Part shown: positions 5,218 to 31,661 of the stretch, piece after piece | How positions within the stretch are numbered: position 1 is the stretch's first letter | Layout: each line of letters starts with the position of its first letter | Source: an uncultured Collinsella sp. | GTDB lineage: Bacteria > Actinomycetota > Coriobacteriia > Coriobacteriales > Coriobacteriaceae | Direction: 5' to 3' | Length of the DNA: 64,000 bases | Assembly (NCBI GenBank): GCA_934654585.1 | Contig: CAKUGF010000001.1 | Span: 62,001-126,000, forward strand | Notes under the pieces: generated by a model | Seen by the model: the letters and a program-made list of their open reading frames with translations, nothing else | What the model was told of the DNA's origin: nothing | Database searches by the model: none | Position numbers and translations under genes: made by a program

Positions 5218-6731
5218 TGGCGCAGAGCTTCGATTCCCTTACCGCCGCCCAGATCGCCGCGGGCGTTTCCGCCGGCGACTTTACCGCTACCGAGGTGGCC
5301 CAGGCCTCCCTTGCCGCCATCGAGGCGCGCGAGGGCGGGGTCCAGGCATTCCTGCAGGTGTCGCCCGAGCTCGCGTTCGAGGCCGCCGCGCGCGTGGATG
5401 CCGACCGTGCCGCCGGAAAGCCGCTGCCCCCGCTCGCGGGCGTGCCGCTGGCCATCAAGGACAACATGAACCTCGTGGGTACGCGCACCACCTGCGCCTC
5501 CCGCATGCTCGAGAACTACCAGAGCGTCTACACCGCCACCTGCGTCCAGCGCATGCTCGACGCCGGCTGCCTGCCCATGGGCAAAGCCAACATGGACGAG
5601 TTCGCCTTTGGTAGCTCTACCGAGAGTTCGGCTTTCCACCGTACCAACAACCCTTGGGATACCGAGCGCGTGCCCGGCGGCTCCTCGGGCGGCTCCGCTG
5701 CCGCCGTTGCCGCGGGCGAGGTCGCGCTCTCGCTGGGCTCGGACACCGGCGGCTCCATCCGCCAGCCGGCGGCGCTCTGCGGCGTGGTGGGCCTTAAGCC
5801 CACGTATGGCGCCGTGAGCCGCTACGGCGTGGTGGCCTTTGGTTCTTCACTCGACCAGGTTGGCCCCTTTGGTCGCACGGTCGAGGACGTCGCGCTGGCC
5901 ATGAACGCGCTTACCGGCGCGGGCCACGATCCGTACGACTGCACCAGCCAGGATTGCGCCGTCGACTTTACCGAGCATCTCAACGACAGCATCGAGGGCA
6001 AGCGCGTGGGCATTATCCCCGCGTTTATGGAGGCCGAGGGCCTGACGCCCGAGGTCAAGGCCGCTGTTCAGCGCGCCGCCCAGGAGCTGCAGAACCAGGG
6101 CGCCGAGCTGGTCGAGGTCGACCTGCCGCACCTGGACGCCGCCATCGCCGCCTACTACGTCATCGGCCCGGCCGAGGCGTTCTCCAACCTGGCCCGCTTC
6201 GACGGCATTCGCTATGGTTACCAGGAGAAAGGCTGCGCCAACCTGTCCGACCAGAGCTCGCTCTCGCGCGCCCACGGCTTTGGTGCTGAGGCCAAGCGCC
6301 GTCAGATGCTCGGCGCCTACCTGCTGAGCTCGGGCGTATACGACAAGTACTACTACGCCGCGCAGAAGGCCCGCACGCTTATCACGCAGGACTACGACGC
6401 CGCGTATGCCAAGGTGGACACCATCCTGATGCCCGCCTCGCCGCGCACGGCCTTTAAGTTTGGCGAGATCAGCGACCCCACGCAGATGTACCTGTCCGAC
6501 CTGTACACCATTTCGCTCAACATTTGCGGCAACGGCGGCATTTCGGTGCCGCTGGGCCTGGGCGAGGACAGCAAGCTGCCCGTTTCTGCCCAGCTGGTGG
6601 GACCTGCGTTTAAGGACCGTCAGCTGCTCACGTTTGCCCGCGCTCTGGAGCGCGGCTTTGCCGATGCCGCCACGGGTGCGCCCGCGCTTTCCGTCGCGCC
6701 CGATTTTGCCGGGAAGGGAGGCGAGCTGTAA
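5217..6731 (+). CDS. gatA: Asp/Glu-tRNA amidotransferase subunit A (amidase)
   Basis: The 504-residue glutaminase/amidase subunit that releases ammonia from glutamine for GatB. The amidase-signature triad is visible: Lys81 (AIKDN), cis-Ser156 within GGSSGGSA, and nucleophile Ser180 (TGGSIRQP). The length is normal for GatA. Its start overlaps the gatC stop and its own stop overlaps the gatB start, implying translational coupling. With GatBC it gives the cell Gln-tRNA(Gln) and/or Asn-tRNA(Asn) by the indirect route. Confidence 0.96.
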   Translation: MAQSFDSLTAAQIAAGVSAGDFTATEVAQASLAAIEAREGGVQAFLQVSPELAFEAAARVDADRAAGKPLPPLAGVPLAIKDNMNLVGTRTTCASRMLENYQSVYTATCVQRMLDAGCLPMGKANMDEFAFGSSTESSAFHRTNNPWDTERVPGGSSGGSAAAVAAGEVALSLGSDTGGSIRQPAALCGVVGLKPTYGAVSRYGVVAFGSSLDQVGPFGRTVEDVALAMNALTGAGHDPYDCTSQDCAVDFTEHLNDSIEGKRVGIIPAFMEAEGLTPEVKAAVQRAAQELQNQGAELVEVDLPHLDAAIAAYYVIGPAEAFSNLARFDGIRYGYQEKGCANLSDQSSLSRAHGFGAEAKRRQMLGAYLLSSGVYDKYYYAAQKARTLITQDYDAAYAKVDTILMPASPRTAFKFGEISDPTQMYLSDLYTISLNICGNGGISVPLGLGEDSKLPVSAQLVGPAFKDRQLLTFARALERGFADAATGAPALSVAPDFAGKGGEL

Positions 6732-8407
6732 TGAAGGAGCTTTCCGAGGTCCTGCAGGATTGGGAGGCCGTGATCGGCTTGGAGATCCACACCGAGCTCA
6801 CCGCACTCGACACCAAGATGTTCTGCAACTGCAAGCTCAGCCACGATGACGAGCCCAACGCCAACGTGTGCCCGGTGTGCCTGGGCCTGCCCGGCGCCCT
6901 GCCGGTGCCCAACAAGCGCGCCATCGAGAGCATCGTCAAGGCCGGTCTCGCCACCAACTGCGAGATTCAGCGCCACTCGATGTTCTACCGCAAGCACTAC
7001 TTCTATCCCGACATGGCCAAGAACTTCCAGACCACGCAGGGTCCGGTCGCCTTTGCCATGTACGGCCATCTGGACCTGGACGTGACCGGTCGCGGTGCTG
7101 CCGAGCGCCCCGACTGCGCGTTTGGCGAGGCCGAGGCCCAGAGCCTGGCGAGCGCCTCGGCCAACGCTGAGGGTCTGTCCACGTCCATGTCGTCGACCAT
7201 GCGCGAGGGCAACCAGCGCGCCGGTCACCTGGCCAGCTACGACGCGTCCAACCTGCAGATGCCCGAGCGCCGCGAGGACGGTTCCTACACGGTGCCCATC
7301 CGCATCCTGCGCATCCATATGGAGGAGGACGCCGCCAAGATGGTGCACGTGGGCGGTGCCGAGGGCCGCATTACCGCCGCGGCCGAGTCGCTCGTCGACT
7401 ACAACCGCTGCGGCACGCCGCTGATCGAGCTCGTCACCGAGCCCGACCTGCGCACGCCCGAGGAGGCCCGCCTGTTTATGGAGAAGCTCCGTCGCATCTT
7501 TGTGACGCTGGGCATTTCCGACTGCTCCATGGAGAAGGGCTCCATGCGCTGCGACGGCAACGTGTCGCTGCGCCGCCGCGGCGAGACCAAGCTGGGCACC
7601 AAGACCGAGCTCAAGAACCTCAACTCGTTTAAGAGCCTGCACGACGGCCTTGCCTACGAGATTTGCCGCCAGGCCGAGGTGCTCGAGGAGGGCGGCATCA
7701 TCTATCAGGAGACCCGCCACTGGGAGCCCAGCCGCAAGCGTACCGTGGTCATGCGCGTGAAGGAGACGGCCGACGACTATCGTCTGTTCCCCGATCCCGA
7801 CCTGGCGCCGTTCGATCTGGACGACGAGTTTATCGACCGCTGCCGTGGCGAGATCCCCGAGCTGCCCGATGCCAAGCGCGCCCGCTTTGAGGCCGACTTT
7901 GGTATTAAGACGGCAGACGCCGAGCAGATTGCCGGCGACCCCGAGTTCGCCGAGTTCTTTGAGGCCGCCGCTGCCGGTATGGCCGGCAAGGAGGCCCAGA
8001 CGGTCGCGAACCTGCTGGTCAACGAGATGATCGCCTATCTTAAGGGCGCGGGCGTGTCGCTTGCCGAGTCCGGCATTGCACCGGCTCAGGTGGCCGCACT
8101 TGCCAAGCTGCTAGCGACCGATACCATCAGCTCCAACCAGGCGCACGAGGTCTTTGGGGCCATGGCCCAGACCGGCGACGACCCCAACAAGATCGTCGAC
8201 GAGCGCGGTATGCGCCAGGTGAGCGATGCCGGCGCGCTGCAGCCGATCGTGGACGAGGTGCTGGCAAACTGTGCCGAGCAGGCGCAGCAGTACCGCGACG
8301 GCAATCAGAAGGTCATCGGCTTTTTGGTTGGCCAGTGCATGAAGGCGAGCCGCGGCAAGGGCAACCCGAAGCTCTTCAACGAGTTGCTGAGAACGTCGCT
8401 CTCGTAA
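6731..8407 (+). CDS. gatB: Asp/Glu-tRNA amidotransferase subunit B (kinase/tRNA binding)
   Basis: A 558-residue subunit that phosphorylates the misacylated tRNA and transfers ammonia to it. It opens with the conserved VIGLEIHTEL; a Cys pair (MFCNCKL) and CPVCLGLPGALP form the metal site. The C-terminal YqeY-like tail domain reads LVGQCMKASRGKGNP. The start ATG shares its A with the gatA stop. Length and order are standard. The transcript continues into the structured element at 8411-8546 and ends at the terminator at 8594. Confidence 0.96.
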   Translation: MKELSEVLQDWEAVIGLEIHTELTALDTKMFCNCKLSHDDEPNANVCPVCLGLPGALPVPNKRAIESIVKAGLATNCEIQRHSMFYRKHYFYPDMAKNFQTTQGPVAFAMYGHLDLDVTGRGAAERPDCAFGEAEAQSLASASANAEGLSTSMSSTMREGNQRAGHLASYDASNLQMPERREDGSYTVPIRILRIHMEEDAAKMVHVGGAEGRITAAAESLVDYNRCGTPLIELVTEPDLRTPEEARLFMEKLRRIFVTLGISDCSMEKGSMRCDGNVSLRRRGETKLGTKTELKNLNSFKSLHDGLAYEICRQAEVLEEGGIIYQETRHWEPSRKRTVVMRVKETADDYRLFPDPDLAPFDLDDEFIDRCRGEIPELPDAKRARFEADFGIKTADAEQIAGDPEFAEFFEAAAAGMAGKEAQTVANLLVNEMIAYLKGAGVSLAESGIAPAQVAALAKLLATDTISSNQAHEVFGAMAQTGDDPNKIVDERGMRQVSDAGALQPIVDEVLANCAEQAQQYRDGNQKVIGFLVGQCMKASRGKGNPKLFNELLRTSLS

Positions 8408-8410
8408 GCG

Positions 8411-8546
8411 GGAACCGAGGGGCCGGGCGCAGGGCCTTGCCTCTCAATTTCGAACAGTCCTGACTCACGACGGAGGCGCCACTGGCGCCTCCTGTTCGTG
8501 CGGAACTCATTGAGAGGCAAGGCCCTGCGCCCGGCCCCTCGATTCC
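8411..8546 (+). ncRNA. Structured 3'-UTR element A: long hairpin with conserved core
   Basis: Arms 8416-8448 and 8509-8541 are perfectly complementary over 33 bp and extend outward with one mismatch to 8411 and 8546. Inside is an asymmetric core (ACAGTCCTGACTC on the 5' side, CGTGCGGAACTC on the 3' side) and a 9-bp apical hairpin at 8472-8492 with loop ACT. The same core, with different arms and a different apical stem, occurs on the minus strand at 30139-30280. It begins 3 bases after the gatB stop and lies before the gatB terminator, in sense orientation. It could be a functional RNA or a non-autonomous hairpin element; no family is known to me. Confidence 0.7.
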
Positions 8547-8593
8547 GTGACGACTCGGCCGTTCGGGTCAGGTGGGCTGAATGGAATTTGGTG

Positions 8594-8624
8594 AATGAGG
8601 GCGCCGATGGCGCCCTCATTTTTT
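8594..8624 (+). terminator. Intrinsic terminator of gatCAB
   Basis: A perfect 12-bp stem (8594-8605 with 8609-8620) with loop GAT runs into a T tract. It lies 187 bases past the gatB stop, beyond element A, and touches the end of the convergent araC-type gene. Confidence 0.9.
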
Positions 8625-9621
8625 ATATATGTTGGGAGCGCCAGGTGGTGGGGGTGGTGCCGGTGTGTTGCTTGAAGGCTTGGGCGAAGGCGGCTTGTTG
8701 GGGGTAGCCTAGACGCTCTGCCACCTGCGCTATCGTGAGCGCGCTATCTGCCAAAAGGTCCTGCGCCCGCTCCATGCGGCGCCTTCGTATGTAGGCGCCC
8801 AGGGATTCACCGGTTTGTGCCTTAAAGGTGGCGCACAGTTTGGAACGGCTTGTGTAGAGCCTCTCGGCCACCTCGTTGATACCCACATGTCTGCCTCTGT
8901 CGAGCGCGCGCTCAACAAAGGCAGACGCTTCCTCGGCAATGGTCACGCTGGCGCGCGTGTCTGCCGCCTGCCGCGCCTGCTTGTGGGCCGCGCGCGAACA
9001 GGCGAGCTCCGCGACCATGGTCCCCACGATGCCCTGCATATAGACGTGTCCGCCTACGGTGCGGGCGCGGTCCTCGTTAATCCGGCGCAGCGTGTGGCAA
9101 ATGGCGGACGTCGCCTCTTCGTGCCACGGTTCGGCAAACGCATCAAAGATTCCCGCAAACTCGGTGGGGTAGCGGTGTTCCAACTCGTCAAAATACCCGG
9201 GCAAAAAGAGCACCGAGCGCGAGTGATAGAGCTGCCCTGCAAACAGCGGGCTTAGCTCCTCGCCACAGTTATCCTGGATAAAGCTGCAAACGGCATTGTT
9301 TGGCCACGGTCCATGCAGGGGTTTAAGGTTCGCAGGCGTTATGCCAGCCTCGGGCATGCATGTAAGTGTGGGCGCGCTGACCTCGCTCACGCAGGCGTAC
9401 GGCTCGGGTGTGTATTCGGCCAGGTGCATGTCGCGCGTCGGGGTAATGAAATGCTCCATGACGATGCAGCTGGGGGAGAGAGGCATGATCCATGCGCGGC
9501 CGTGCGCCCGGTCGTTTGCCACCTCGCCGGTAAAGACGGCGCCCTTGCCGGTAAGCTCCAAGCCAAACTGCTCAAACTGCGGTGCGTAGAGCTCGGTTAT
9601 GTCGGTCGCTGCCCGCCGCAT
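8623..9621 (-). CDS. AraC-family transcriptional regulator
   Basis: A regulator of about 332 residues. The C-terminal third has the two helix-turn-helix units of the AraC family (INEVAERLYTSRSKLCATFK, then the region YIRRRRMERAQDLL through IAQVAERLGY); the N-terminal part would bind a ligand. The open frame starts at 9705, but ATG 9621 (MRRAATDITELY) or TTG 9627, which sits 6-7 bases from GGAAGGGG, is more likely because longer versions run into the divergent promoter region. It faces an ABC exporter pair across about 120 bases, an arrangement like YbtA with YbtPQ, so it probably controls those genes. The ligand is unknown. Confidence 0.85.
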   Translation of the reverse strand: MRRAATDITELYAPQFEQFGLELTGKGAVFTGEVANDRAHGRAWIMPLSPSCIVMEHFITPTRDMHLAEYTPEPYACVSEVSAPTLTCMPEAGITPANLKPLHGPWPNNAVCSFIQDNCGEELSPLFAGQLYHSRSVLFLPGYFDELEHRYPTEFAGIFDAFAEPWHEEATSAICHTLRRINEDRARTVGGHVYMQGIVGTMVAELACSRAAHKQARQAADTRASVTIAEEASAFVERALDRGRHVGINEVAERLYTSRSKLCATFKAQTGESLGAYIRRRRMERAQDLLADSALTIAQVAERLGYPQQAAFAQAFKQHTGTTPTTWRSQHI

Positions 9622-9740
9622 TTGCAAAAGCGTCCCCTTCCTTTGCGAAAACGTCCATGCCTGGCTTGATTGTGAGCCATGGCTAACAATCAATGATAAG
9701 TTCATTACGGTTAACTCTCAAGCCGTTAGAAAGGAATCTC
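9622..9740. promoter_or_regulatory. Divergent promoter region, araC-type gene / ABC exporter
   Basis: This 119-base gap holds both promoters and, probably, the AraC operator. It is relatively A/T-rich around 9680-9720 (ATGGCTAACAATCAATGATAAG). The exporter ribosome site AAAGGAA is at 9730-9735. I could not fix -35/-10 boxes with confidence. Confidence 0.4.
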
Positions 9741-11567
9741 ATGGCAAAGGGATCAAAAAAGGAAGGTGGCGGTATCGGCGAGCTGCTCGCGTATGCCGGT
9801 AACCGCAAATTCCTAACGTATTTGGGCATGGTGCTTTCGGCGCTCTCGCAGCTGCTGAGCTTTGGCCCGTACGTGTGCATTTGGCTTGTCGCGCGCGATT
9901 TGATCGCCGTGGCACCTAACTGGAGTGAAGCCTGCGACATCGCGATGTATGGCTGGTGGGCCGTGGGCTTTGCCCTGGCAAGCATCGTAGCTTATTTCGT
10001 GGGGCTCATGTGCACGCACCTGTCTGCGTTTCGCTGCGCGTCCAATATCCGCAAGACTACGAGCGAGCACCTGCTTAAGCTGCCGCTTGGCTACTTTGAC
10101 ACGCATGCCACCGGAGAGCTGCGTCGTGTTGTAGACGGATGCGCCGCCTCCACCGAGACTTTGCTCGCACACATGCTGCCCGATATCGCAGGCGCCGCCG
10201 CCATGGTCGTGGGCCTGCTCGTGTTGCTTTTTGCTCTCGATTGGCGTTTGGGTGCTGCGTGCCTCATCTCGGTCGTCATTTCGTTTGGCGCCATGGCCAC
10301 CATGATGAGCGGCAAGGGCGCCGAGTTCATGAAGGCCTACATGGGTGCGCTGGTCAAGATGAACAAGACTGGCACCGAATACGTGCGCGGTATTCCCGTG
10401 GTCAAGGTGTTTCAGCAGACGGTCTACTCTTTTAAGGCTTTCCACGATGCGATTGCCGAGTACGCGCGCCTGGCGCAAGACTATGCGGGTACGTTCTGCC
10501 GCGGCCCGCAGGTGCTCAACCTTACGGCGTTAAACGGCCTCGTGGCGTTCTTTTTGCCTGTGGCGCTGCTGTTGGCACCAGGCGAGACAGACTTCCCGCA
10601 CTTTTTGACCAACTTCACCTTTTACGCGATCTTTTCGGCCGTGGTGCCGACGGCTATGACCAAGCTTATGTTTGTGAGCGAGGCATCTCAGATGAGCGCC
10701 GATTCGCTGGCCCGCATCCGCAGCATTATGGAGTCCCAGCAGCTTCCCGTGCCCGCTCAGCCCAAGCATCCTGTTGGCAGTGATGTACGCTTTGATGACG
10801 TGAGCTTTACGTACAAGGGTGCCGAGGCGCCCGCTGTCAACCATGTGAGCTTTAACGTTTCTGCCGGTAGCACCCTTGCACTGGTGGGTCCCTCGGGCGG
10901 CGGAAAGTCGACGTGCGCGAGCCTGATCCCGCGTTTTTGGGATGTCTCCTCGGGCCGCGTGCTCGTGGGCGGCGTGGATGTCCGCGACATGGATCCTCAC
11001 GAGCTCATGGACCAGGTTGCCTTTGTGTTCCAGACCAACCAGCTGTTTCGCCAGACGCTTGCCGACAACGTGCGTGCCTCCAAGCCTACGGCCACTGATG
11101 ACGAAGTGCGTGCGGCCCTCTCCGCGGCCCAGTGCGACGACATCGTGGCCAAGCTCCCGCAGGGTATCAACACCATGCTCGGTGCTGGCGGGGCATATCT
11201 TTCGGGCGGCGAGGTGCAGCGCGTGGCGCTTGCCCGTGCCATCCTCAAGGACGCGCCCATCGTGGTGCTCGACGAGGCAACGGCTTTTGCCGATCCCGAG
11301 AACGAGGCGCTCATCCAGCGCGCCTTTAGCAAGCTGGCGGCGGGCCGCACCGTCATTATGATCGCGCATCGACTTTCGACCGTGGTGGGCGCCGACCAAA
11401 TTGTGGTGCTCAACCAGGGCGGCGTTCAGGAGTCGGGCACCCATGCCGAGCTGCTGAGCCGGCATGGCCTGTACGCCAAGATGTGGGCCGAGTATGAGCA
11501 GGCCGCGAGCTGGAAGATCACTGCCGCGACCGCAGATGTTGCCGCCGCGAAGGGAGGCGAGGCTTAA
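9741..11567 (+). CDS. ABC transporter, fused permease/ATPase (first of a pair)
   Basis: A half-transporter of 608 residues: an N-terminal six-helix type IV exporter membrane domain and a C-terminal ATPase with Walker A GPSGGGKST, signature LSGGEVQR, Walker B IVVLDEAT and the H-loop IAHRLS. ATG 9741 follows AAAGGAA; the frame is open to 9693. The next gene starts directly after its stop, and both are half-size, so they form a heterodimer. The Walker B region reads DEATAFADPE. The pair and the divergent AraC regulator resemble the YbtPQ/IrtAB group, which act on siderophores; substrate and direction are not shown by the sequence. Confidence 0.88.
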   Translation: MAKGSKKEGGGIGELLAYAGNRKFLTYLGMVLSALSQLLSFGPYVCIWLVARDLIAVAPNWSEACDIAMYGWWAVGFALASIVAYFVGLMCTHLSAFRCASNIRKTTSEHLLKLPLGYFDTHATGELRRVVDGCAASTETLLAHMLPDIAGAAAMVVGLLVLLFALDWRLGAACLISVVISFGAMATMMSGKGAEFMKAYMGALVKMNKTGTEYVRGIPVVKVFQQTVYSFKAFHDAIAEYARLAQDYAGTFCRGPQVLNLTALNGLVAFFLPVALLLAPGETDFPHFLTNFTFYAIFSAVVPTAMTKLMFVSEASQMSADSLARIRSIMESQQLPVPAQPKHPVGSDVRFDDVSFTYKGAEAPAVNHVSFNVSAGSTLALVGPSGGGKSTCASLIPRFWDVSSGRVLVGGVDVRDMDPHELMDQVAFVFQTNQLFRQTLADNVRASKPTATDDEVRAALSAAQCDDIVAKLPQGINTMLGAGGAYLSGGEVQRVALARAILKDAPIVVLDEATAFADPENEALIQRAFSKLAAGRTVIMIAHRLSTVVGADQIVVLNQGGVQESGTHAELLSRHGLYAKMWAEYEQAASWKITAATADVAAAKGGEA

Positions 11568-13325
11568 ATGTTCGCCTCATTCCAAAAGAAGTATTTCCTG
11601 TCCGACAAAGGTATCGCCGGCGTAAAGCGCGGCATATTCTGGACCACACTCACCAATCTCATCACCATGGCCGGCATGGGCTTTTTGTTCCTGGTCATGG
11701 CCGGCTTTGTCGAGCATCTCGCCAGCGGGACTGACCTGCCGGATGCCCTGCCGATCGTGGGCGGCCTCCTGGTCTTTTTCGTGCTGCTCTTTGCCTCTAA
11801 CTGGCAACAGTACTACTACACGTACTGCATCTTTTACGAGGAGTGCGGCAAGCAGCGCATGGGGATTGCCGAGCGCTTGCGCAAACTGCCGTTGTCGTTT
11901 TTCGGCCGTCGTGATCTGGCCGATCTAACCGAAACCATCATGGGCGACGTTCAGACTATGGAGCATGCCTACAGTCATGTGCTGGGAGAACTCTGGGGCG
12001 CCATCATCGCAAGCGCCATCGTGTTCGTGGCGTCGCTGTTCTTTTGCTGGCAGCTGGCGATTGCGGCGTTTTGGAGCGTGCCCGTGGCCTTTGCCGTGCT
12101 GTATCTGACACGCGGGCCCATGACCCCGGTGTTCGACCGCGTGCGCGCCGAGAAGGTCAAGGTCACCGAGGCGATTCAGGAGACGCTCGACTGCGTGCGC
12201 GAGATTCGCGCGACCAATCAGGAGACGCATTATCTTGAGGGCCTCAACGCCGTGATTGATGCCGAGGAGCGCGAGACCACTAAGGGAGAACTCGTTAACG
12301 GGCTTTTGGTCAACTCCGCCTTTGTCATTTTGCGTCTGGGGATCGCTTCCACGCTGGTAACGGGCGCCGCGATGGTCGCCGCCGGCCAGGTCGACTTCAT
12401 GGTGATGTTCGCCTTCCTGCTCATGGTGAGCCGCATCTACGCGCCGTTCGACCAGGCCCTCATGCTCGTCTCCGAGCTGTTCGCCGCTGAGTCCTCCGCC
12501 AAGCGCATGCGTTCCATCATGGAGGAGTCCGTGGCGCAGGGTGACGAGAAGTTTGAGCCTGCGGGCCACGACGTGGTGTTCGATCACGTGGCATTTGGTT
12601 ATGGTGCGGGCGAGGACGGCCGCGCCGGCGAGAAAGTTCTTACCGATGTGAGCTTTACCGCTAAGGAAGGCGAGGTCACGGCACTGGTCGGTCCTTCGGG
12701 TTCTGGCAAGTCTACGGTGAGCCGACTGGCCGCGCGCTTTTGGGATGCCACCGCGGGCAAGGTTACCGTGGGTGGCGTGGATGTTGCGGGCGTGGACCCC
12801 GAGGTATTGCTGCGCGACTACGCCATTGTGTTCCAGGACGTGCTGCTCTTTGACGACACGGTGATGGGCAATATCCGCCTGGGCCGTCGCGATGCCACCG
12901 ACGAGGAAGTCCTCGCGGCCGCGCGTGCCGCCAACTGCGACGAGTTCGTAAGCCGCATGCCGCAGGGCTATGACACCATGATTGGCGAGAACGGCTCCAA
13001 GCTGTCCGGTGGCGAGCGCCAGCGCATCTCCATCGCCCGTGCGTTGCTCAAGGATGCGCCGATCGTGCTGTTGGACGAGGCAACGGCGAGCTTGGATGTA
13101 GAGAACGAGACCGTGGTGCAGCAGGCACTTTCTCGCCTGCTCGCCGGCAAAACGGTCATCGTGATCGCTCATCGCATGCGCACGGTTGAAAATGCCGACA
13201 AGATCGTCGTGCTCAAGGACGGCGTGGTTGCCGAGCAGGGCACTCCGGCACAGCTCAAGGCAGCGGGCGGAGAATTCGCCCGCATGGTCGCACTGCAAAA
13301 GGAAGCAGCAACCTGGCAGCTGTAA
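11568..13325 (+). CDS. ABC transporter, fused permease/ATPase (second of a pair)
   Basis: Partner half-transporter, 585 residues, starting at the base after the previous stop codon. The membrane domain is followed by an ATPase with Walker A GPSGSGKST, signature LSGGERQR, Walker B IVLLDEATASLD and H-loop IAHRM. Both ATPase halves carry a full motif set; the glutamate after Walker B (DEAT) is present in each. It is expected to work in the cytoplasmic membrane as a heterodimer with the product of 9741-11567. A GGGACAG-core palindrome follows its stop codon after 3 bases. Confidence 0.88.
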   Translation: MFASFQKKYFLSDKGIAGVKRGIFWTTLTNLITMAGMGFLFLVMAGFVEHLASGTDLPDALPIVGGLLVFFVLLFASNWQQYYYTYCIFYEECGKQRMGIAERLRKLPLSFFGRRDLADLTETIMGDVQTMEHAYSHVLGELWGAIIASAIVFVASLFFCWQLAIAAFWSVPVAFAVLYLTRGPMTPVFDRVRAEKVKVTEAIQETLDCVREIRATNQETHYLEGLNAVIDAEERETTKGELVNGLLVNSAFVILRLGIASTLVTGAAMVAAGQVDFMVMFAFLLMVSRIYAPFDQALMLVSELFAAESSAKRMRSIMEESVAQGDEKFEPAGHDVVFDHVAFGYGAGEDGRAGEKVLTDVSFTAKEGEVTALVGPSGSGKSTVSRLAARFWDATAGKVTVGGVDVAGVDPEVLLRDYAIVFQDVLLFDDTVMGNIRLGRRDATDEEVLAAARAANCDEFVSRMPQGYDTMIGENGSKLSGGERQRISIARALLKDAPIVLLDEATASLDVENETVVQQALSRLLAGKTVIVIAHRMRTVENADKIVVLKDGVVAEQGTPAQLKAAGGEFARMVALQKEAATWQL

Positions 13326-13328
13326 GAA

Positions 13329-13357
13329 TGTGACAAAGTGACAGTCCCTCTGTCACA
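13329..13357. repeat. GGGACAG-family palindrome, copy 2
   Basis: Arms TGTGACAAAGTGA (13329-13341) and TCCCTCTGTCACA (13345-13357) flank CAG, with two mismatches. It is closely related to the unit at 14829-14867 and starts 3 bases after the ABC transporter stop codon. It may also act as a weak terminator. Confidence 0.7.
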
Positions 13358-13395
13358 CTTCATTGTATATGATGAAAATGTAACAAAACTGCCCT

Positions 13396-13472
13396 AAAAC
13401 TTCCGTAAATGTGATAAATATCACGTTTTACCCAGGGTAAAATGTGAGAAATCTCACATTTACGGAAGTTTT
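13396..13472 (+). promoter_or_regulatory. Nested inverted repeat with two dyad operators before a DUF4143 gene
   Basis: Outer arms 13396-13414 and 13454-13472 are perfectly complementary over 19 bp. Within or overlapping them are two dyads of the same form, GTGATAAATATCAC (13411-13424) and GTGAGAAATCTCAC (13444-13457), 33 bases apart or about three helical turns. The right arm ends 16 bases before ATG 13489. The spacing suggests an operator for a dimeric or tetrameric regulator, or an RNA hairpin in the leader. Confidence 0.55.
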
Positions 13473-13488
13473 TTGCGGGAGGTCGGTC

Positions 13489-14838
13489 ATGCAGCGGGAT
13501 ATCATCGCCAAGCTTAATGCTTGGAAGGCGTCGGAGTATCGTAAGCCGCTCATCCTTAAAGGAGCGCGTCAGGTTGGAAAGACGTGGGCGCTCAAGGAGT
13601 TCGGCCGCGCCTCGTATCGCAACTGCGTATACCTGACGCTGGAGGAGCCATCTCCCGGGGTTCAAAGCGAATATGCGCAGTTTTTCGAGGGCACGCGTGA
13701 TCCGCGGCGCATTATTTCAAATCTATCCTTGGCGTTTGGCCAGCCCATCGATCCTGGCGAGACGCTGCTTATTGTTGACGAGATCCAGGACTGCCCCTCT
13801 GCAGTTGGTGCTCTCAAGTATTTTTGCGATGAGGCCCCCGAATATCACGTTGCGTGCGCAGGGTCTTTGCTGGGTGTTCGCTTGTCCCGCGAGACGAGTG
13901 CCTTTCCGGTGGGAAAGGTCGAGTTCATGGAGATGCGCCCCATGAGCTTTTCTGAGTTTTTAAAGGCCGAAGGCGCCTCAAACTATGATGCGTATCTTGG
14001 CGGTCTGGATCAGATCGAGGCGGTACCGGATTTCTTTCATGTCAGACTCGTCGAGCACCTTCGCCGCTATTTTGCATGCGGTGGCATGCCGGAAGCTCTT
14101 GGTCGGTGGGTCGAAACGGGTGATATTGCTCAGGTTGATAAAGTGTTATCCGACCTCTTGGATTCCTATGAGCGTGATTTTGCCAAGCACGGTGGTCGTG
14201 CACAGTTCGCTAAGCTTTCGCAAATTTGGAACTCAATTCCAACGCAGCTGGCGCGCGAGAATAAAAAGTTTGTTTGGGGTGCGGTTCGCGAGGGGGCTCG
14301 TGCCCGCGAATATGAGGACGCTCTGGAATGGCTCGCCGATGCCGGTCTGATCACGTCGGCGCGACTTAATACCGGCGGCGGAATACCGCTCTCGGCCTAC
14401 GATGATCTCAAGGCCTTTAAGGTTTACTGTCTTGATGTTGGCTTGCTGCGCCGTATGGCAAAGCTCGATGCTTCGGCATTCGCCATCTCGGACGCGATTT
14501 TTTCTGAGTTCAAAGGCTCGTTTGCCGAGAACTACGTGCTTCAGGCGTTGCTTCCGCAGCTGGATGCCGCTCCGCGCTATTGGACTAACGAGAAACCAAA
14601 GCATGAGGTCGATTTTTTGATTCAAGTCGGAAACAATATTGTTCCCGTTGAGGTCAAATCGGGGGAGGTCATTCATTCCAAGAGTCTGAAATACTATGCC
14701 GACAAACATGCGGAGACGACCCCGTTGAGAGTCCGTTACTCCCTTAAGAACCTGAGGCTTGACGATGGGGTGCTCAATATTCCGCTGTATTTGGCCGACC
14801 GATCCGTCCCTCTTATCAAGAAAGCGCTCGCAGCATGA
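13489..14838 (+). CDS. AAA-type ATPase with DUF4143 domain (copy 1)
   Basis: A 449-residue protein. The N-terminal AAA_14 ATPase has Walker A GARQVGKT (residues 25-32) and Walker B LLIVDEIQ (Asp97-Glu98), and the family-typical CAGSLLGV. The C-terminal DUF4143 region ends with a nuclease-like pattern: HEVDFLIQ, then PVEVKSG, as in PD-(D/E)xK folds. Start ATG 13489 follows GGGAGG; the upstream frame would read through the inverted repeat. These proteins are common in gut bacteria and archaea, often in several copies, and have no established function. A full paralogue lies at 57459 and a fragment of a third near 56846. Confidence 0.85.
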   Translation: MQRDIIAKLNAWKASEYRKPLILKGARQVGKTWALKEFGRASYRNCVYLTLEEPSPGVQSEYAQFFEGTRDPRRIISNLSLAFGQPIDPGETLLIVDEIQDCPSAVGALKYFCDEAPEYHVACAGSLLGVRLSRETSAFPVGKVEFMEMRPMSFSEFLKAEGASNYDAYLGGLDQIEAVPDFFHVRLVEHLRRYFACGGMPEALGRWVETGDIAQVDKVLSDLLDSYERDFAKHGGRAQFAKLSQIWNSIPTQLARENKKFVWGAVREGARAREYEDALEWLADAGLITSARLNTGGGIPLSAYDDLKAFKVYCLDVGLLRRMAKLDASAFAISDAIFSEFKGSFAENYVLQALLPQLDAAPRYWTNEKPKHEVDFLIQVGNNIVPVEVKSGEVIHSKSLKYYADKHAETTPLRVRYSLKNLRLDDGVLNIPLYLADRSVPLIKKALAA

Positions 14839-14867
14839 CAAAGGGACAGTCCCTTTGTCATGCTGCG
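14829..14867. repeat. GGGACAG-family palindrome, copy 3 (perfect 18-bp arms)
   Basis: Arms 14829-14846 and 14850-14867 pair perfectly around CAG. The unit includes the stop codon of the DUF4143 gene (14836-14838), so it supplies the last codons of that protein. No T tract follows. Confidence 0.85.
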
Positions 14868-14900
14868 GGGCAGTGCGGATCGTTGTCTAATACTTTTCCT

Positions 14901-15042
14901 AGAAGTGAACGACCTTATTTGGACCCACGAAGCATCGACACATTTTGGAGGTTGTTTCCTGCGGTTTTGTCGAGTTTTTCCTGCGGTTTTGCTGCCGAAA
15001 AATGCGGATGCTTCGGGGGTCCGATTTTGCTCGTTCACTTCT
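14901..15042. repeat. Long imperfect inverted repeat, 142 bp
   Basis: Arms 14901-14936 and 15007-15042 match at 30 of 36 positions, with a block of five mismatches in the middle. The interior carries TTTCCTGCGGTTTTG twice in direct orientation. It has no coding frame that spans it and looks like a miniature mobile element or structured RNA. The 3' flank up to 15170 shows no gene. Confidence 0.65.
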
Positions 15043-15176
15043 CGGGAAAACCATTCACCTTCAATCCGCCGGAGAGGGAAGGCCTCTTCTTTGGCGTCAC
15101 GGGTATGTGTCGTGGCGAACGGATCGCTGAAAACTGGATGCTCGGAGCCCTATAGTTTCCAAAAAGTTAACCGTTG

Positions 15177-29085: not shown

Positions 29086-29973
29086 CTATGGACGGCTCGA
29101 AGAGACCGGCTCCCATGCAATAAACGCCCAACGGACCTTGCGGACGTGGTCGAGCATGTAGCGCCCCTGCGGCACGCCCTTGGACCCCGGCTCGCCGGCA
29201 TGGGGATTCTCAATCATATGCTGGGCGACGTAGACGCGCAGACGGTCGATCTTATCCTCGCTACCGTGCTCGAGCATGCGGGAGAAGTCCGCCACGCCCG
29301 CCTCAAGGCTATCGAAGGTATCGCGACGAGGTGATTCAAAGTACGTAACCTGCGGCAGGGCACCCATCTGAATGAGAATGTTAAAGGCATACACAAAGCC
29401 ATTACTGCAGGTAACCGAGGCGCCAATGGCGTTCATCAAGTGCAGGTCATAACGCGGGCTGGAGTTGGCGACCATGGTGACAGCACAACGCCGACGAGCC
29501 GTACGGTCAAGCTTGGCGAGCGCGCCCCTCAGATCGTTTGTCGTAATCGAGCGACTGGCAAAGGCAACATCGACCGCTTTCGCGACCGGTCCAACCAAAC
29601 TCCAGTCATCATCCCAAGCAAGCTCAAGCGGCGTAATGCGACCCTCGAGCCCATAGTACTCAATGCCGGCATCAAGCGTGCCCAACATAGCAGGAGAGAA
29701 GTCAGCAGCAATCACAGGATGCCCAGCTTGAGCAAGCGGAATAGCAATCGACCCAGCCCCACACCCCATATCCAGCACCGACTCGCCGGGCTGGAGTGCC
29801 AACAGCTTCATAAAATCCCGGGCATACGGAGCAGTCTCAAGCGGCCGAAAATGCCGAGCCCTTTTATCCCACTCAAAAGAATCATCAGCCCGCCGCCGAG
29901 CAGCCTGCAGGCGCATCCATTCATCATTCCAATCCGCAGAAAGCAGCTCAGAACGAATCAAATCATCAGCCAC
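29086..29973 (-). CDS. Class I SAM-dependent methyltransferase
   Basis: A 295-residue methyltransferase starting at GTG 29973, 7 bases after AGGAGG. Motif I is VLDMGCGAGS, followed by VIAADFSPAML with the acidic residue that binds the ribose of SAM. The substrate is unknown; the N-terminal DWNDEWMRLQAARRRADDS is shared with a group of anaerobe methyltransferases found beside metal or corrinoid genes, by memory only. Codon use changes along the gene: the first 50-60 codons mostly end in T, and the last third mostly in C or G. That may reflect a recombined or recently acquired 5' part. Confidence 0.82.
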   Translation of the reverse strand: MADDLIRSELLSADWNDEWMRLQAARRRADDSFEWDKRARHFRPLETAPYARDFMKLLALQPGESVLDMGCGAGSIAIPLAQAGHPVIAADFSPAMLGTLDAGIEYYGLEGRITPLELAWDDDWSLVGPVAKAVDVAFASRSITTNDLRGALAKLDRTARRRCAVTMVANSSPRYDLHLMNAIGASVTCSNGFVYAFNILIQMGALPQVTYFESPRRDTFDSLEAGVADFSRMLEHGSEDKIDRLRVYVAQHMIENPHAGEPGSKGVPQGRYMLDHVRKVRWAFIAWEPVSSSRP

Positions 29974-30138: not shown

Positions 30139-30280
30139 GGAGCCCCGCCGCCGGGCGGCAGACATATAAGGTCGATCGCGAGTTCCGCACGAGCCGGAGA
30201 GCACTTAATGTGCTCTCCGTGCGAGCCAGGACTGTCCGAGCAGGCGACCTTATATGTCTGCCGCCCGGCGGCGGGGCTCC
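30139..30280 (-). ncRNA. Structured 3'-UTR element B: same core as element A
   Basis: Arms 30139-30174 and 30245-30280 are perfectly complementary over 36 bp. Read on the minus strand, the interior has ACAGTCCTGGCTCGC, ACGGAG, an apical hairpin GGAGAGCAC-ATTAA-GTGCTCTCC, then CGTGCGGAACTC. These match element A (8411-8546) in the core, while arms and apical stem differ and remain paired. It starts 16 bases after the DUF711 stop codon and precedes the terminator at 30024-29993, in sense orientation. Between 29974 and 30138 no gene is seen; CAAAGGGACAG at about 30098 belongs to the GGGACAG repeat family. Confidence 0.7.
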
Positions 30281-30296: not shown

Positions 30297-31661
30297 CTAG
30301 TTCTTCAGCGAGTTCAGTGGCGCCGGGAATCGACCACCGCGATGGGCAAGCACGGTGCCGGCGTTGGGGTTCACCGGCATGATGGGCGCACGGCCGAACA
30401 GGCCGCCGTACTCGACGCAGTCGCCCACGCCCTTGCCGATGGCGGGAATCACGCGGACGGCCGTGGTCTTGTTGTTGATGACGCCGATGGCCATCTCGTC
30501 GGCAATGATGCCGGCGATGGTCTCGACCGGGGTGTCACCGGGGATGGCGATCATGTCCAGGCCGACGGAGCACACGCAGGTCATGGCCTCGAGCTTCTCG
30601 AGCGAAAGCGCGCCGGCCTCGACGGCGGCGATCATGCCGGCGTCCTCGGACACGGGGATAAAGGCGCCCGAGAGGCCGCCCACGCTGGAGCTGGCCATGA
30701 CGCCGCCCTTCTTGACGGCATCGTTGAGCATGGCGAGCGCGCAGGTCGTGCCCGGGCCGCCGCAGGTGCCCACGCCGATGATCTCGAGGATGCGGGCAAC
30801 GGAGTCGCCAATGGCAGGCGTAGGTGCCAGCGACAGGTCGACGATGCCCTTCTCGACACCCAGGCGGCGGGCGGCCTCGCGGCTCATGAGCTCGCCGGCA
30901 CGGGTGATCTTAAAGGCGGTCTGCTTGATCTTCTCGGCGACCTCCATCATCGAGGCGGAGTCGGGGAGCGTCTCCAGGGCAGCAGCCATAACGCCGGGGC
31001 CCGAGACACCAACGTTGATGACGGCGTCGGCCTCGCCGCCGCCGTGGACGGCGCCCGCCATAAACGGGGAGTCCTCGACCATGTTGGCAAAGCAGACAAA
31101 CTTGGAAGCGCCGACGGAATCCTGGTCGGCCGTGAGCTTGGCGGCGTCGATGATGGTCTGCGCGGCCATGAGTACGGCGTCCATGTTGATGCCGGCGCGC
31201 AGGCTGGCGACGTTGACGCTGGAGCAGACGCGGCTCGTGGTGGCGAGCGCCTGCGGAATGGACTGGATAACGCGGCGGTCGGCATCGCCGATGCCCTTCT
31301 GGACGAGCGCGGAGAAGCCGCCCAGGTAGTCGATGCCGAGGGTCTCGGCCGCGCGGTCGAGGGCGTGCGCGATGGGGGTGAGGTCCTCATCCTTGCAGCA
31401 AGCGGCGATCTGCGCCACCGGGGTGACGGAAACGCGCTTGTTGACGATGGGGATACCGTACTCGCGCTCGAGGTTCTCGGCGGTCTCGACCAAGTGCTCA
31501 GCCGTGTGCGTCACGTGGTCGTAGATCTTCGTGCACATGCGGTCGAGGTTCTCGTCACCGCAACCCATGAGCGAAACACCCATGGTGATGGTCCTGATGT
31601 CGAGGTTCTGCTCCTCAACCATGCCGCGGGTTTCCGCGATTTCTGCAGGCGTGATCGCCAT
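30297..31661 (-). CDS. DUF711/UPF0210 (PFL) family protein
   Basis: A 454-residue protein from ATG 31661 ([14 protein letters not shown]), preceded by AGGAG; the frame is open to 31718. It shows the family regions [27 protein letters not shown] and [12 protein letters not shown]. Proteins of this family have a fold related to pyruvate-formate lyase and glycyl-radical enzymes but no established activity. In many bacteria the gene is preceded by a small ACT-domain gene (UPF0237); none is seen here. It lies downstream of metH on the same strand, with a hairpin between them. Confidence 0.9.

Follow-up and report, generated by a model that had tools for sequence, protein, structure and literature searches.

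MITEs carry terminal repeats that are common to their copies. They are short, inverted-repeat, multi-copy and non-autonomous, and Rickettsia palindromic elements (RPEs) are dispersed palindromic repeats of ∼150 bp that lie in frame in unrelated genes, according to the sections of PMC10969869 on these elements. RAYTs are reported from gammaproteobacteria, and the passages of PMC2817692 on their distribution give no homologs in other major lineages. The mitochondria of Nematomorpha contain long coding palindromes (extracts of PMC6649704). Palindromes can also be reshaped in place: template switching is reported to homogenise the arms of inverted repeats and invert the spacer (extracts of PMC8604942), and to make perfect stems and multi-base compensatory changes in RNA genes (extracts of PMC8794818).

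Here we show that element A, a hairpin 3' of gatB in Collinsella, belongs to a dispersed family of palindromic repeats in Coriobacteriales and is not a gatB-specific RNA. This family of gut Coriobacteriales is apparently new to the literature, as no description of it was found in open-access papers. Its many copies are found in gut bacteria (Collinsella, Gordonibacter, Adlercreutzia and Paraeggerthella) and enter conserved genes in frame. In this family, the concerted evolution of inverted repeats can be followed in many natural replicates and with its intermediates (chimeras and one flip). The family also carries a caution: paired changes, which commonly serve as proof of RNA structure, can arise by DNA copying.

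Elements A and B and the DNA behind gatB

The window is the whole stretch of DNA that was analysed (64 000 nucleotides of an uncultured Collinsella sp.). Element A and its neighbours are on the plus strand. Upstream is gatB (6731–8407, stop codon at 8405–8407; Pfam GatB_N, E = 4e-101, and GatB_Yqey, E = 7e-44). The locus-specific 5' arm (8411–8448) pairs with the 3' arm (8509–8546) at 37 out of 38 positions and the inner 33 pairs are unbroken, which bears out the 33-bp perfectly complementary arms reported in a first-pass annotation. Between the arms, three parts can be told apart by sequence: the 5' strand of a conserved internal loop (8449–8466, with AGTCC at 8456–8460), which is kept in other copies; an apical stem-loop, GGAGGCGCC-ACT-GGCGCCTCC (8472–8492), which is variable among copies; and GGAACTC (8502–8508), the 3' strand of the conserved core helix, which is conserved in copies and is also where half-copies start. 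R1, a covariance model of the core built from 39 sequences, matches 8449–8510 with 75.7 bits (E = 1.3e-18). A separate terminator-like hairpin followed by a T-run lies downstream (8593–8621; recognised by sequence, with a partial weak model match).

Element B (30139–30280, minus strand; 36 out of 36 arm nucleotides paired) is a second copy, in the 3' region of a DUF711 gene (30297–31661, minus strand; Pfam PF05167, E = 5e-182) and sense to that gene. R1 matches its core at 30178–30240 (minus strand) with 81.0 bits (E = 4.7e-20). These two are the only strong core copies in the window, the next best scoring 16.7 bits. Comparison of the two agrees with the earlier observation that they share the core and differ in arms and apical stem.

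The best perfect inverted repeat in the window is 36 bp long and belongs to element B; 20 first-order Markov randomisations of the whole window gave a longest repeat of 16 bp, and 18 of them had none of at least 14 bp. The predicted RNA fold of 8391–8566 has −126.4 kcal/mol (z = −12.2 against shuffles). At the gathering score, Rfam models found tmRNA and tRNA only in the whole window, and element A had sub-threshold Rfam matches only, mostly to microRNA hairpins; the core, which the first-pass annotation had called unrecognised, thus matches no Rfam family.

The DNA 3' of gatB (8547–15050 in the window; L151–L172 in related genomes) is an apparent hotspot whose accessory content differs among related genomes: an AraC-type regulator and an ABC transporter are found in the window and a DUF4143-type ATPase in L151, and neither is found in L154. 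Some genomes have tandem half-copies of the element's 3' end within this stretch. A 38-nt inverted repeat (13396–13472) stands upstream of a DUF4143/AAA_14 gene in the window, and very similar sequence adjoins gatB in L151, L158–L160 and L162. An imperfect 55-nt inverted repeat (14894–15049, 76%), whose sequence is also found near gatB in L171, is perhaps another dispersed repeat.

Anatomy, distribution and placement of the copies

Common to the copies is a folded core, CAGTCC...GCGGAACTC, which is flanked by locus-specific arms. From the outside in, the order is arms, asymmetric internal loop, helix AGTCC/GG-A-ACT, short second helix and apical stem. The core is ∼60 nt long and the minimal core ∼27 nt; the minimal form, CAGTCCTCGCTTCGCTGCGGAACTCGC, is found without the apical stem in L281 and L283. 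Arms have a median length of 27 nt (maximum 49) and a G+C content of 0.68 over 138 distinct pairs, and these arms of up to 49 bp are perfect in one copy. Over 102 distinct arm pairs, 2846 out of 3007 arm positions are Watson–Crick, a fraction inflated by the fact that arm ends were defined by pairing. The copies listed for genome G001 share no arms between loci.

The short second helix switches as a unit among copies (GC/GC or AA/UU), and the pairs of the apical stem covary. Three out of five measures of core-helix covariation, including the covariation score (reached by 0 out of 500 shuffles), beat all 500 shuffles; the observed values of the other two were reached by 60 and 232 shuffles. The core helix is intact in 38 out of 41 copies from stretches of three genomes, a collection in which mismatches were allowed. 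The invariance of the AGTCC/GGAACT helix in alignments A1 and A2 (which include 39 of 48 dereplicated elements) is by construction, as the collecting pattern fixed those letters.

Copies from Eggerthellaceae (e.g. L047, L068 and L127) have a conserved stretch in the 3' arm, TTGGTG..CACC, where A.C mismatches result, as though sequence counted for more than pairing at this place. Two facing copies, ∼100–250 nt apart and with unrelated arms, are found in L365, L375, L385 and L386. Two close copies in L144 (∼1761–1842) have a common 3' arm and are likely a tandem duplication.

The exact core pattern was found in 32 out of 98 related genomes, and a reversed-pattern control in none of the 98. R1 matches 125 out of 296 Coriobacteriia genomes (E ≤ 0.001), many of them with at least 18 matches, so the covariance-model search proposed in the first-pass annotation did yield numerous further copies. 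Within a sample of the phylum, 14 out of 296 genomes match (E ≤ 1e-6). All 14 belong to the same order as G001, a genome made up of contigs from Collinsella records; chance may account for the weak matches seen elsewhere in the class, in other families. A scan of one genome per species gave at least 120 stretches with the core pattern. Taxa among the 80 stretches listed are Collinsella, Gordonibacter, Adlercreutzia, Paraeggerthella and Rubneribacter, and the others of these 80 come from family-level Coriobacteriaceae or Eggerthellaceae records and from one 'uncultured actinobacterium'.

A phage or plasmid carrier was considered and rejected on searches of IMG/VR, a phage collection and plasmids. 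The tight core pattern was found in no IMG/VR contig; the loose pattern was found in 42, roughly the number expected by chance on an approximate estimate, and the best of them scored 28.5 bits compared with 75–81 bits for the copies in the window. There was no core match in the phage collection, and the single plasmid match is to C. aerofaciens DNA, in a 900-kb record that was submitted as a plasmid. Three contigs of G001 (L372, L373 and L374) run out right at the element core or a few bases from it, so copies may interrupt assembly from short reads.

Copies are found after genes, before genes, on both strands and in frame within genes. Sense copies lie 3' of the stop codons of gatB, DUF711, nrdD, S58 peptidase, alaS and manA, and antisense copies lie within ∼110 nt of the start codons of thrB, cysS and a serine dehydratase gene. 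For 87 distinct inner-arm types, the gene 5' of the core runs in the sense direction in 45 and antisense in 34, and its strand is unclear in eight, as called by a codon score trained on the window (most scanned genes have a Pfam match on the called strand; 29086–29688 of the window has none). Five copies were found in 290 kb of the annotated 900-kb C. aerofaciens record, two sense and three antisense, all of them between annotated protein genes (the annotation table lists no RNA genes). The first-pass annotation placed element A in sense orientation between a stop codon and a terminator. This is correct for element A itself (stop codon at 8405–8407, hairpin at 8593–8621) but fails as a general rule, given the 34 antisense arm types and the in-frame, pre-start and flipped copies. 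A gene-specific gatB riboregulator was likewise rejected, because copies adjoin many unrelated genes.

In-frame insertion is seen in unrelated reading frames (gatA, tsaB-rimI-tsaD and a DUF1385 gene). The gatA (Amidase) frame reads through the element in three Eggerthellaceae loci. In this family, some copies within gatA and TsaB-RimI-TsaD leave the frame free of stops. 30 loci of the TsaB-RimI-TsaD gene were fetched, 28 of them with a parsable frame, and six of the 28 have the element in frame in one linker, once reversed (L305 is not counted, its copy being 110 codons before the TsaB motif and probably pre-start); L285, of the same genus, and other TsaB-RimI-TsaD genes have a short linker instead. 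For the DUF1385 gene, five out of six other genomes of the family give alignments that are split in two or cover a later piece only, and these alignments skip most or all of the element-bearing stretch. The tsaB-rimI-tsaD gene of L039 has one copy plus an apparent second, decayed in-frame copy (by eye on the protein).

Change at single loci and its possible causes

Our single-locus comparisons use one genome per species, and so compare close species, not strains; the genomes are mostly 90–97% identical in the neighbouring gene. At SDR-rpiB, the 68-nt core of one genome (L130 and L220, forward) is the exact reverse complement of that of another (L023 and L227), and the arms differ at one base. 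Three out of 14 genomes have this element forward, one has it reversed and 10 are without it. Inversion of the core between the same arms was seen at this one locus. Core orientation is the same at gatB in 22 out of 22 close genomes (presence was read from the alignment and variant cores are included), at DUF711 in 22 out of 22 close loci (sense), and at thrB in 21 out of 21 readable close loci (reversed; two by eye). Four more distant genomes have sense copies at DUF711 with other arms (two by eye), and a further four DUF711 loci are without the element; at thrB, L333 and L338 are reversed, L337 is forward (by eye), and L332, L334, L335 and L339 have no element.

There are 13 distinct arm pairs in 22 gatB loci, seven in 20 DUF711 loci and six in 20 thrB loci, and the different arms of related genomes at these loci are mostly paired. 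The gatB arms form at least four sets, some with common inner or outer parts, and the thrB arms four sets and one chimera. Chimeric arms (half from each haplotype, or with one half lost) are found in L263, L310 and L170. The tsa genes of L280 and L281 have the same flanks around different arms and a different core. Pairwise arm differences are compensated in 420 cases vs 336 uncompensated at gatB (756 in total), 28 vs 62 at DUF711 (90, chimera included) and 73 vs 49 at thrB (122); these counts, from 22, 20 and 20 loci, include chimeras and are not independent. RNA wobble pairs are not in excess among the mismatches of Collinsella-type arms (33 A.C vs 37 G.T). In the family taken as a whole, A.C exceeds G.T (61 vs 34 after removing duplicates; 45:21 on the sense side and 31:14 on the antisense side of genes), which we think stems from the conserved stretch of the Eggerthellaceae 3' arm. 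A search for target-derived arms at gatB, DUF711, SDR-rpiB, thrB, tsaBD and the DUF1385 gene gave no alignable empty site, and a weak hint of such an arm at gatB in L175. Among the loci compared, no clean alignment to a close empty site was obtained, and no target-site duplication was seen.

We consider it somewhat probable that the family is a MITE- or RPE-like repeat, and that template switching during DNA replication is what keeps its arms matched. The repeat would have spread to intergenic and in-frame genic sites as a small non-autonomous element moved by a putative enzyme. Once a hairpin is in place, the replication fork could switch template between the arms; one arm would then be copied from the other, which would keep the two matched as they change together, and the core would sometimes be inverted. 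The AGTCC/GGAACT helix would be kept because it is needed for propagation or by a protein that binds folded DNA, which is the weakest step. Template switching is reported to homogenise arms and invert the spacer, and we found concerted arm changes and one exact core inversion as well as chimeras; blocks of paired change, exact spacer inversion and chimeric intermediates fit switching between the arms. Several observations count against it: many arm differences are uncompensated, wholly new arms at one site exceed simple homogenisation, a core flip between the same arms was seen at a single locus, the family-wide excess of A.C over G.T is not wholly accounted for, and the orientation at DUF711 is constant, although frequent neutral flipping would randomise it. 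The intact core helix together with this fixed orientation requires either selection or recent spread, and the core may act as RNA or bind protein. We infer mobility, since neither a transposase nor a target duplication nor a clean empty site came to light.

A possible but rather doubtful alternative is a selected structured RNA, in which a duplex with an internal loop in a 3' UTR or leader controls mRNA processing, stability or protein binding; arm sequence would be free and pairing selected. The sense copies after stop codons at gatB, DUF711, nrdD, S58 peptidase, alaS and manA, the orientation kept at DUF711 across genomes, the conserved internal loop and the covariation score of the core helices (not reached by any of 500 shuffles, although two other measures are not beyond shuffles) agree with it. 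Against it are the antisense position of 34 out of 87 arm types to the gene on their 5' side and of three out of five C. aerofaciens copies, the in-frame copies within genes, the exact core inversion at SDR-rpiB and the absence of an Rfam family. Moreover, pairing selected on RNA would favour G-U steps, and Collinsella-type arms have no G-U excess (33 A.C vs 37 G.T). The first-pass annotation had also read element A as a selected structure. Arms do vary between copies and yet remain paired, the asymmetric internal loop is kept, and the core helices covary; but paired changes in the arms are poor evidence of a selected RNA here, since template switching at the DNA level yields the same pattern plus spacer inversion. 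Overall, that earlier reading is partly supported.

It is unlikely that the core acts as a self-priming foldback. In this reading, on entry into a site the 3' strand GGAACT would anneal to the AGTCC of the same core and prime a copy of the 5' flank, giving each copy a perfect second arm made from target DNA. If true, this would be a mobile element that makes inverted repeats afresh at each target instead of carrying them.

A recombination site, with an attachment-like folded core at which accessory DNA enters at GGAACTC and leaves half-sites, appears still less likely. 3' halves that start exactly at GGAACTC do recur downstream of gatB with the 3' arm of another type (L107, L153, L156, L164, L169 and L171, where L107 and L169 show the same half-site), and the DNA beyond them varies among genomes. 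These half-copies suggest breakage at this point. However, the gatB half-sites follow a related spacer and so may go back to one ancestral event, no recombinase was identified, and a half-site scan outside gatB gave L050 and L144 only, both ambiguous. Ordinary terminators that are alike by chance are very improbable: the copies do lie close to gene ends, but out of 138 distinct arm pairs one has a T-run after the 3' arm, a terminator of its own follows element A separately, and the core sequence is common to the copies.

Comparison with known systems

Among candidate RNAs of the human microbiome (PMC8040213), palindromic ones are set apart as terminators or REP-like in the sections on them; none of those described there matches the repeat family, and the sole mention of Collinsella in these sections is for a candidate upstream of L7/L12. 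The family resembles REP/REPIN in being composed of dispersed extragenic palindromes, some in facing pairs; a GT(A/G)G head before the palindrome was not seen by eye in A1 and A2. The Y1 (IS200-like) transposase family PF01797 is present in 13 out of 29 genomes; it is absent from nine element-rich genomes (G006, G033, G091, G132, G145, G149, G199, G265 and G324), which carry from 11 to at least 18 scored copies, and no core was seen at 20 Y1 loci (L340–L359). A RAYT/IS200 engine was rejected for now on account of these nine genomes and 20 loci.

With template-switch hairpins and quasi-palindrome correction the family has in common arm homogenisation, spacer inversion and multi-base compensatory change; but the cases in the extracts of PMC8604942 and PMC8794818 concern individual sites where arms or spacers are short, whereas here we have a dispersed family with a conserved core and arms of up to 49 bp. 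By description (PMC10969869, in the sections on these elements), the family works most like MITEs and RPEs. It is, like MITEs, a short, inverted-repeat, multi-copy and non-autonomous repeat, but its arms differ by locus and neither a target duplication nor a parent transposon was found. It is, like RPEs, dispersed and in frame in unrelated genes, but it belongs to another clade, its copies share the core only, between locus-specific arms, and it shows concerted arm change and core inversion.
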